Part shown: positions 19,036-21,595 of the stretch, piece after piece | Numbering within the stretch: position 1 is the first letter of the stretch | How the letters are laid out: each line of letters begins with the position of its first letter | Origin: Mixta hanseatica | GTDB lineage: Bacteria > Pseudomonadota > Gammaproteobacteria > Enterobacterales > Enterobacteriaceae | Direction of reading: 5' to 3' | Length of the DNA: 64,000 nucleotides | Assembly: GCF_023517775.1 (NCBI RefSeq) | Contig: NZ_CP082904.1 | Location: 3,658,001 to 3,722,000 of the forward strand | The notes under the pieces: model-generated | The model's database searches: none | Told to the model about the DNA's origin: nothing | The model's input: the letters and a program-made list of their open reading frames with translations, nothing else | Made by a program: the position numbers and the translations under genes

Positions 19036-19635
19036 ATGAGTGCAATCGCGCTTGGTATGATTATTTTCGCGTATCTGTGCGGCTCCATTTCCAGCGCTAT
19101 TTTAGTTTGCCGGCTCGCAGGCCTTCCCGATCCACGTCATAACGGCTCCGGTAATCCCGGCGCGACCAATGTGCTGAGGATCGGCGGCAAAGGTGCCGCA
19201 GCTGCCGTACTGGTGTTTGACGTTCTTAAAGGCATGTTGCCCGTCTGGCTTGCCTGGACGCTGGGCATTTCGCCAATCTATTTGGGCCTGACCGCCATTG
19301 CCGCCTGCCTGGGACATATCTATCCGGTGTTCTTCCGCTTTCGCGGCGGTAAAGGCGTGGCGACCGCCTTTGGCGCCATCGCGCCTATCGGCTGGGATTT
19401 AACCGGCTTGATGACCGGCACCTGGCTGCTTACCGTGCTGCTCAGCGGTTACTCTTCTTTAGGCGCTATTGTTAGCGCACTTATTGCGCCTTTCTACGTC
19501 TGGTGGTTTAAACCCCAGTTCACCTTCCCGGTAGCGATGCTTTCCTGTCTGATCCTGTTACGCCATCACGATAATATTCAGCGTTTATGGCGTGGGCAGG
19601 AGACGAAAATCTGGAAAAAAAGAAATAAAAAATAA
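19036..19635 (+). CDS. plsY: acyl-phosphate:glycerol-3-phosphate acyltransferase PlsY
   Basis: 199 residues. PlsY is a polytopic inner membrane enzyme that transfers an acyl group from acyl-phosphate to glycerol 3-phosphate, the first step of phospholipid synthesis. The three family motifs are visible: [12 protein letters not shown] (about 36-47), [18 protein letters not shown] (about 93-110) and GYSSLGAI (about 140-147). The C-terminus is basic. Gene order with folB is conserved. Confidence 0.96.
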
Positions 19636-20037
19636 CACAGGGCGTAGCCACGCTCTGTGTCAGCGCTTTCCGCAGGCAAAATCTTATTAACTTCGCGGCC
19701 TATTTTTCTGCGGCCTGGGTAAAGGAAAAGAGTCCTGTCTGAGATATTTCTTCGCGCAAACGCATTACTATTACAATTACGCTGCCTGTAACTTTTCCAG
19801 GGCAGAACGGCGCGTGAAATAGAATTAATCGTTACTGTCGCGCTTGTAAAAATAATATGCCTTTTCTGGAATAACCCTTATTGCAAACCCATGTTAATAG
19901 CGGTTCTCCATGCTTGGTTATATCCGCATCTGTCTGCTGAGCAACGACACGGCTACTATCTCCCTGATTTTATAAAGCATAACAGGTCACCTCATCATGC
20001 GATGAGTATTCAACGGAAGAAAAAAGAGGACACAACA
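19636..20037. other. 402-base AT-richer gap between plsY and the microcin-like gene
   Basis: A stem at 19635-19660 (ACACAGGGCGT with one G-U pair) follows plsY without a clear T-run. After it I see no gene of convincing quality on either strand. The last 147 bases happen to be open in frame with the downstream gene, but no ribosome site or homology supports translation there. An AT-rich stretch near 19840-19860 (TAATAT) could be promoter sequence for the downstream gene. No candidate immunity gene is seen. Confidence 0.5.
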
Positions 20038-20325
20038 ATGAGAGAATTAATTCAACCTGAGATTTTAGCCGTCAGCGGCAGCGGTTTTATCAGCCAGATC
20101 GGCGGGCTGGTAGGCGATTTTGTGGGCGACACGGTTTATTCCTTTGTGCCCGCCCTGACAATAAAAATCCCGTTTCTGGGCGATTTTGATATCAGAAAAA
20201 GCTTTCCAAAACTTGGCTCGGATATTGGTAAAGGCATCGGGGAGCAGATAGGCAATGGAATCGAATTTATTGGCAGTATGATCCCGATATTTGGCGGCCT
20301 CATTAATAAAATCATGGGCAACTAA
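20038..20325 (+). CDS. putative class II microcin-like precursor peptide (orphan)
   Basis: 95 residues. The start has an AGAGGA ribosome site at correct distance. Residues 1-14, MRELIQPEILAVSG, resemble the double-glycine-type leaders of class II microcins (microcin V: MRTLTLNELDSVSGG), with SGSG at 13-16 where GG would be expected. The remainder is Gly-rich, hydrophobic, free of Cys and Trp, and shows GxxxG chains at 22-26-30 and 60-64-68-72, as seen in membrane-active bacteriocins. No immunity gene, peptidase-ABC transporter or HlyD-type exporter lies in the window, so secretion and activity are inferred only. Located between plsY and tsaD, where E. coli has unrelated genes. It could instead be a leader-bearing peptide of another role. 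Confidence 0.6.
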   Translation: MRELIQPEILAVSGSGFISQIGGLVGDFVGDTVYSFVPALTIKIPFLGDFDIRKSFPKLGSDIGKGIGEQIGNGIEFIGSMIPIFGGLINKIMGN

Positions 20326-20338
20326 AACGGTAAATTAA

Positions 20339-20365
20339 AGATGCTGTTGTTAAACAACAGCATCT
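20339..20365 (-). terminator. terminator after tsaD
   Basis: A perfect 12-bp stem (AGATGCTGTTGT with 20354-20365). On the minus strand it is followed by CTTTAATTTA, a T-rich tract, so it fits as the tsaD terminator; it may also stop the upstream plus-strand peptide gene. Confidence 0.75.
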
Positions 20366-20375
20366 GTCAGCATGA

Positions 20376-21392
20376 TTATGCGATGGCCGGCAGCTCAGCC
20401 AGCGGCCAACGTGGACGGACGCTAACGCCAAGCTCGCCGCGCGTACCGCCTTTCAAACGCACCATGCCGGCATAGGCGATCATCGCGCCATTGTCGGTGC
20501 AAAATTCAGGCCGCGCATAAAACACTTCGCCGCCTCGCGCCTGCATCACTTCAGCCAGTTTCGCGCGCAGCGTACGGTTAGCGCTGACGCCGCCAGCCAT
20601 AACCAGACGTTTAAAGCCGGTTTGATCCAGCGCCCGCTTGCATTTAATCGCCAGCGTATCCACCACCGCATCTTCAAAAGCGCGCGCGATATCCGCCTGC
20701 GTTTGCGCATCATTGCTGTTCTCGCGAATGGTATTCGCCGCAAAAGTTTTGAGGCCGGAAAAGCTAAAGTCCAGGCCTGGGCGATCGGTCATTGGGCGTG
20801 GGAAGGTAAAGCGCCCCGGCGTGCCCTGCTGCGCCATGCGTGACAGCATCGGTCCGCCTGGGTAATCCAGCCCAAGCAGTTTGGCCGTTTTGTCGAACGC
20901 CTCGCCGGCGGCATCATCAATCGACTCACCCAACAGCGTATATTCGCCAATGCCGGTTACGCCGATCAGCTGCGTGTGCCCGCCCGAGACCAGCAGCGCA
21001 ACAAATGGAAATTCAGGCGGATTATCTTCCAGCATCGGCGCCAGCAGATGCCCTTCCATATGGTGTACCGGCACGGCGGGAACCTGCCAGGCAAACGCCA
21101 GCGACCGACCTATGGTCGCGCCGACTAACAGGGCGCCAACCAGCCCAGGACCGGCGGTATAGGCCACCGCATCAATATCTTTGCCCTGCAGACCCGCCTC
21201 TTTCAGCGCGGCCTGGATGAGCGGAACCGTTTTACGCACGTGATCGCGCGAAGCCAGTTCCGGCACCACCCCGCCATAATCGGCATGGACTTTCACCTGA
21301 CTATAGAGTTGATTAGCGAGCAAACCGGCTTCATCGTCATAAATAGCAATACCGGTTTCATCACAGGATGTTTCAATACCCAGAACGCGCAT
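20376..21392 (-). CDS. tsaD: tRNA N6-threonylcarbamoyladenosine transferase subunit TsaD
   Basis: 338 residues (E. coli 337). TsaD, with TsaB and TsaE, transfers the threonylcarbamoyl group to A37 of ANN-decoding tRNAs. The ASKHA-fold signature starts with [10 protein letters not shown]; the metal-binding HHMEGH (about 110-115), SGGHTQL and [10 protein letters not shown] segments are intact. The ATG at 21390-21392 (MRVLGIETS) has AGAGG upstream and matches the family; an upstream in-frame start at 21431 is unsupported. Divergent from rpsU, as in E. coli. Confidence 0.97.
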
Positions 21393-21595
21393 GGTTGCTT
21401 TACCTCTCTGTTGCGGCGCGCAGTGTACCACAGCCAGCCAGCACTCCGAGGCGATTTTCTGGAACGTTCGCCTGTTTTGTGAGCGGAAAATGAAAAAATA
21501 GTGAACGCAGCTTTGCGCTATACGCTATACTCCTTCGCCTGCAAAAAACCGGCAGCCGCCTGGGGCTCTGTTGGTTTGAAAAGCGCAATGTTGCT

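Follow-up and report, generated by a model that had tools for sequence, protein, structure and literature searches.

A double-glycine-leader peptide gene in the plsY-tsaD gap of Mixta hanseatica and its likely export in trans by a C39 system beside a fimbrial operon

Results

A single peptide gene lies between plsY and tsaD

The window analysed here is a stretch of 64,000 nucleotides from the genome of Mixta hanseatica (referred to as G000 in the rest of the paper). A gene coding for a 95-aa peptide lies alone in the gap between two open reading frames that we take to be plsY and tsaD, its nearest genes being these two housekeeping genes (Table 1). The reading frame singled out in a preliminary description of the window is real and preceded by GAGG; homologues at the same site, the constraint on dN/dS and the invariant residues (see below) set it apart from a chance frame. 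A 144-aa upstream extension of the frame was rejected, since the sequence is conserved only from the MREL codon onwards and in a short block ahead of it. The peptide contains glycines at positions 22-26-30 and 60-64-68-72 and neither cysteine nor tryptophan, as first described; G22 is not conserved among its relatives in the 24-sequence alignment. Its C-terminus, GGLINKIMGN, is not a Ser/Gly-rich tail, and a class IIb siderophore microcin was rejected for this reason.

Table 1. Features of the plsY-tsaD slot, in window coordinates
Feature	Position	Strand	Basis
plsY, ordinary left flank of the slot	19036..19635	+	ORF call
Palindrome-like CTCATC-ATGC-GATGAG, just upstream of the peptide gene	19991..20006	+	Conserved block in most Mixta copies
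GAGG, probable ribosome-binding site	20026..20029	+	Read from sequence
Double-glycine-leader peptide gene, 95 aa	20038..20325 (including stop codon)	+	ORF call and homologues
Leader, residues 1-15, MRELIQPEILAVSGS	20038..20082	+	24-homologue alignment; cut after G14-S15 predicted
Mature peptide (predicted), 80 residues	20083..20322	+	AlphaFold2 model and alignment
Hairpin with 12-bp stem between the convergent peptide and tsaD genes	20339..20365	.	Terminator-like on the minus strand, downstream of tsaD
tsaD, ordinary right flank of the slot	20376..21431	-	ORF call

The upstream palindrome reads TTCATC-TCAG-GATGAA in G004 and G007, is imperfect in G001 and G005, and is missing in G006. Its arms differ between G000 and the relatives in a matching manner, and the element could be an operator or a 5′ hairpin. 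When it was sought in 16 exporter-side and syntenic loci, only L106 and L098 matched, with no clear link. The hairpin downstream of the peptide gene has a z-score of −3.93; about one such site is also expected by chance. A sigma-70 scan returned no site.

The peptide family is constrained, fast-evolving and uniformly leader-bearing

A protein search of 99 related genomes gave matches in eight. Full-length homologues occupy the plsY-tsaD site in four Mixta genomes (G000, G001, G004 and G007), the G000 peptide sharing 46-67% identity with the other three; a homologue from Mixta theicola (NZ_NWUO01000004.1) is 67% identical. Two further copies are broken: the alignment shows a stop following codon 8 in G006, and the G005 copy has an early stop, with much of the core missing. 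A profile of the first seven sequences was then run against 392 family genomes, 44 of which matched at E 0.001. Full-length family members were taken to be the 15 matches below 1e-15, found in 14 genomes; the weaker matches, many of which cover only the first third, were excluded from the alignment and are probably other double-glycine peptides sharing the leader. Named carriers include Klebsiella pneumoniae ATCC 13883 (the type strain), K. spallanzanii, K. grimontii, Erwinia oleae and a Pluralibacter metagenome assembly. In both annotated records found, the homologue appears as 'hypothetical protein', and neither carries the non-secreted annotation that would have spoken against the first description.

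We aligned 24 non-identical full-length homologues, having excluded from the extraction the broken loci L005 and L008 and the duplicate L007 (of L064). M1, E3, L4, G14, G16, G30, P57, G60, G64, G68, G72 and E76 are invariant in 24/24. The leader is kept in all 24 sequences, and the extraction, which demanded a leader, nevertheless gave an entry for every intact locus supplied. A leaderless or non-secreted protein was rejected on the strength of this invariant leader, which, judging from its sequence, is a genuine double-glycine leader of 15 residues with the pattern MxEL...VSG(G/A/S) ahead of G16. The 'SG-SG' motif with a cut after residue 14, as given in the preliminary description, needs correcting: the precursor would be cut after G14-S15, before G16. 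Residues 14-15 are GA in 18 homologues, GS in four, the window's copy included, and GG in two (counted by eye). The GS pair is probably an accepted variant, since it is also found in the double-glycine peptides that directly adjoin the C39 exporters of G002 and G003.

Among the four Mixta copies, dN/dS ranged from 0.11 to 0.25 in five of six pairs, the sixth being saturated, versus 0.006-0.035 for the neighbouring plsY and tsaD; the peptide gene is therefore constrained yet fast-evolving. The Pfam model MccV was weakly matched by 18 of the 24 homologues (E up to 1; best 0.0025), while for the window's own protein neither Pfam nor NCBIfam gave any match, MccV included, with the threshold relaxed to E 10. 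PADLOC gave a single match, at E 0.049. A phage gene was rejected, with no match among 50,697 phage records.

An AlphaFold2 model built from the 24-row alignment (mean pLDDT 76.4, pTM 0.56, with low values at the leader and the C-terminus) places helices at residues 17-36, 59-81 and 83-93 and a beta hairpin at 41-51. The predicted helix 59-81 bears the invariant G60/G64/G68/G72 chain and E76. A sequence search of the PDB with the family profile gave no match at E 1, and Foldseek on both models returned nothing with E below 3, hence no similar solved structure.

A C39 exporter beside a fimbrial operon accompanies intact slot peptides in Mixta

A C39 peptidase family search of the 99 genomes, combined with reading of the stretches, revealed a syntenic cluster in six of the eight Mixta genomes. 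Its order is response regulator, TolC-like channel, HlyD adaptor, C39-ABC exporter, one or two double-glycine peptides and a chaperone-usher fimbrial operon. In G000 (L040), the genome in which the Pfam domains of the cluster were tested, the frames are open and the C39 domain has the Cys, His and Asp expected when active (by eye); in G007, channel and adaptor form one 876-aa frame. A C39-ABC exporter, a membrane-fusion protein and a TolC-type channel are thus all present in G000. The first description had proposed searching the genome for an ABC transporter of this type and an HlyD-type adaptor, and both were found on the contig of the peptide gene, 608 kb from it (position 4,286,251 for the exporter, 3,678,038 for the orphan).

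G005 and G006 gave no C39 match, and their syntenic stretches lack the cluster. G002 and G003 possess the cluster and lack the 95-aa family; their plsY-tsaD slot holds a 69-aa double-glycine-leader peptide (L060 818-1027 and L061 817-1026, respectively) whose core is unrelated by eye. The presence of a different peptide in the same slot indicates that the slot exchanges cargo. Thus, in all six Mixta genomes with the exporter the slot is filled by an intact double-glycine peptide, of the 95-aa family in four and with another core in two, and the copies of both exporter-negative genomes are broken.

A second C39 locus of G000 (L039), which includes a radical-SAM gene, is a less likely exporter because G001 and G007 keep the peptide with only the fimbria-side C39 match. 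By eye, L039 6890-12531 (G000:C1:2890000-2909000) and L045 of G004 are clusters of radical-SAM-like, HlyD, C39-ABC and protease-like genes. They possibly represent a modified-peptide system. In G000 the frame of the radical-SAM gene seems to be split, and in G004 it is the C39 domain that is broken. The exporter-side peptides L040 11566-11880 and L104 5936-6325 matched Pfam DUF5862 weakly (E about 0.005, below the cut-off).

Peptide and exporter co-occur in Klebsiella and in the wider family

In a sample of 20 genomes of the genus of G198, taken to be Klebsiella since the peptides of three members match by eye those of the named strains, the peptide was found in eight, always between hflC and yjeT/purA. 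We scored as orthologous any exporter with 79-100% identity to the fimbria-side exporter of G198. With this 79% cut, chosen post hoc, the peptide was present in 8/11 genomes with the orthologous exporter and 0/9 without it (one-sided Fisher p = 0.0013; this and the p-values below treat genomes as independent and overstate that independence because the genomes are related). Three Klebsiella genomes thus have the orthologous exporter and no peptide. G352, G439 and G445, which lack the peptide, have an exporter of 68-69% identity at 144-185 kb from hflC; counting them as orthologue-bearing gave 8/14 versus 0/6 (p = 0.024). Ten of the 11 genomes have the orthologous exporter at a distance of 31-38 kb from hflC, and the eleventh (G435) has it on another contig; the peptide-exporter distance is 31-39 kb in seven of the eight carriers.

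The hflC-yjeT gap measures 525-600 bp where the peptide is present; of the 12 genomes without it, 10 have a gap of 163-221 bp. The Klebsiella unit is thus a single-gene cassette that leaves no space for an immunity gene. The two odd gaps are those of G440 (336 bp, with nothing recognisable) and G437, which holds a decayed copy and lacks the exporter orthologue. An annotated K. pneumoniae record likewise has the orphan adjoining hflC and, about 31 kb off, a 'peptidase domain-containing ABC transporter' near fimbrial genes, with the usher listed in two pieces (its gene table is incomplete). The 5.37-Mb record CP125156.1 appears to be a chromosome, although its entry describes it as a K. pneumoniae plasmid.

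In the 392-genome sample, a C39 match at 1e-30 or better was found in 13 of the 14 carriers, five of which had themselves supplied the profile, versus 97 of 378 other genomes (p = 4e-7). Accepting any C39 match at 0.001 gave 13/14 versus 166/378 (p = 2e-4). A lack of C39 exporters from all carriers, which would have spoken against the first description, was not observed; the one carrier with no C39 match is G349, whose peptide has an altered C-terminus. In genus g125 (G324, G139 and G251), homologues adjoin an HlyD gene followed by a C39-ABC gene, in contrast to the unclustered arrangement of G000. Among the positional data, this adjacency is the strongest sign that C39 exporters carry the family as cargo.

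C39 exporters recur beside chaperone-usher fimbrial operons

Strong C39 loci (1e-30 or better) numbered 53 among the 99 genomes, 42 of them in genomes with at least one listed usher. At least 14 of these 42 lie within 15 kb of a listed usher, compared to 1.9 expected under random placement; six of them are Mixta orthologues and eight come from seven further genera. Twelve C39 loci scored between 1e-28 and 1e-21; ten are in usher genomes, and at least four are near a listed usher versus 0.42 expected. An exporter stands beside an usher operon in the six Mixta genomes and in G009, G057, G198, G267 and G423. No fimbrial operon was seen in the exporter stretches of the carriers G132, G240 and g125.

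L048 (G009:C2:393000-412000) has a more divergent C39-ABC gene beside an usher operon, along with DsbA-like, MacA/MacB-like and outer-membrane genes (by eye). C39 loci of similar score are found near ushers in G018, G023, G047 and G049.

No conserved immunity gene accompanies the orphan

Within the window, the statement that neither an export nor an immunity gene is adjacent was borne out. No frame is common to the Mixta slots, and a conserved immunity gene in the plsY-tsaD gap was rejected on this ground; upstream of the peptide, conservation among Mixta sequences is confined to a short block. An upstream frame of 57 aa that contains a hydrophobic segment is peculiar to G004, and a frame of 49-52 aa on the opposite strand of the G002 and G003 slots is absent from the other Mixta slots. 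Between the exporter and pilin genes of the Mixta clusters, same-strand frames include no shared immunity-like gene by eye; G004 has a 51-aa, partly hydrophobic same-strand frame there. Small membrane-type frames adjoin double-glycine peptides in the carriers G267 (L103) and G423 (L107, two units) (by eye).

Discussion

The co-occurrence of peptide and exporter within genera and across the family, the decay of the peptide gene where the exporter is missing and the g125 adjacency lend good support to the early idea of a leader-bearing peptide that borrows a distant exporter, and make export in trans by the fimbria-side C39 system very likely. The gene would produce a precursor whose 15-residue leader is cut off after G14-S15 by the C39 peptidase domain of the ABC exporter, although the latter is encoded 608 kb away, and the 80-residue peptide would leave the cell through the HlyD-type adaptor and the TolC-type channel. 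The exporter already has a double-glycine peptide encoded next to it, and the plsY-tsaD slot would be a second, unlinked cargo site with a swappable core. Such an exporter-dependent slot offers a direct genetic handle on export in trans.

For what the peptide does once outside, our first choice is a microcin-like antibacterial role, on which we regard the evidence as evenly balanced. The glycine-zipper helices would associate with or insert into the envelope of rival bacteria, as for class II microcins, and the protection of producers would have to come from a source other than a neighbouring immunity gene. The whole sequence of events, export in trans followed by microcin-like action, is in our judgement about equally likely to hold or to fail. 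Like the class II microcins (MccV, L, N, PDI and S; H47, M, E492, I47 and G492), the orphan has a 15-residue leader of the double-glycine type, and its genome encodes the C39-ABC, HlyD and TolC-type export that these peptides use. Its predicted core of 80 residues falls within the range of 60-90 given for class II microcins in excerpts of PMC10233263. Unlike them, it is not located beside its exporter and has no conserved adjacent immunity gene, and its leader, 15 aa long against 15-18 aa for the class, ends in GS where GG or GA would be expected. No conserved immunity gene accompanies the orphan, so it lacks the partner that defines a microcin. The 'new microcin' of the preliminary description therefore fared less well than its distant exporter, there being neither a conserved immunity gene at the Mixta and Klebsiella slots nor a Pfam or NCBIfam match for the window's own protein. 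A Bacteroides class that we take to be the bacteroidetocins likewise comprises double-glycine antibacterial peptides without an immunity protein, and differs in belonging to Bacteroidetes. Passages of PMC10233263 state that this class of Bacteroides has no immunity protein, and part of PMC6671954 relates bacteroidetocins to the Gram-positive class IIa bacteriocins. The cinful pipeline, according to sections of PMC9746304, picks an immunity candidate by size and proximity; applied to this family, such searches would come up with no genuine partner or would settle on a wrong one, for instance PlsY (199 aa). A portion of PMC13174018 reports 159 candidates from Pantoea, Erwinia and Xanthomonas.

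The main rival to the microcin-like role keeps the same export and has the product act together with the fimbriae at the surface or in biofilm rather than as a toxin, by a logic similar to that of EbfG; our analysis leaves it a serious contender, though on balance somewhat improbable. It would account for the position of the exporter next to usher operons, at a rate well above random placement, for the lack of a conserved immunity gene and for the stable chromosomal slots. It also has a precedent: in Synechococcus, the double-glycine EbfG proteins need a C39 transporter and enable biofilm formation (passages of PMC4997328). EbfG1-4, exported by the C39 transporter PteB of Synechococcus elongatus, are likewise small double-glycine proteins, and the word immunity is absent from the main text of that paper (PMC4997328). 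Unlike the orphan, the ebfG genes are cyanobacterial, lie side by side and, by gene number, adjoin their transporter, and their role in biofilm has been demonstrated. On the other hand, the fast evolution of the core and its swapping in the slot look more like competition, the exporters of G132, G240 and g125 have no fimbrial operon beside them, and adjacency is no proof of joint function.

The recurrence of C39 exporters beside chaperone-usher fimbriae points to a possible joint function. We tentatively suggest, with some doubt, that the C39 system of enterobacterial fimbrial operons might serve both the adjoining double-glycine peptides and remote single-gene slots with exchangeable cores, and that these immunity-free glycine-zipper peptides might act with the fimbriae at the surface, in adhesion, biofilm or contact, rather than as diffusing microcins. 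We found no report of a link between C39 exporters and chaperone-usher fimbriae, mainly in the open literature, and 'fimbri' is absent from the main texts searched, including PMC9746304 and PMC13174018; the link has a weak claim to novelty.

A contact-dependent glycine-zipper toxin comparable to Cdz of Caulobacter, which would aggregate on the producer surface and kill on contact, seems improbable. The extended glycine chain of the core, invariant in all 24 homologues, the small size and type I export would all fit, Cdz also consisting of small glycine-zipper peptides released by type I secretion (see passages of PMC5380434). Cdz differs in that two partner peptides and the adjacent membrane immunity protein CdzI, both needed, share one locus with the exporter, whereas the orphan sites have no conserved membrane immunity gene. 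The core is also less hydrophobic: Gly, Ala, Val and Ile make up 44% of the mature orphan versus 75% glycine and small hydrophobic residues in CdzC/D (same excerpts of PMC5380434). That the gene is a relic, a leader-bearing frame now functionless, is barely credible: its orphan position and the broken copies in G005, G006 and G437 would agree with this, but every one of the four Mixta and eight Klebsiella copies accompanied by an orthologous exporter has an open frame, and the gene is clearly constrained.

Some fimbria-side loci contain several double-glycine peptides of their own. In Klebsiella G198, L104 5936-7231 contains three nearly identical tandem double-glycine peptides between the fimbrial adhesin and HlyD genes, and G009 (L047) also has three double-glycine peptides.
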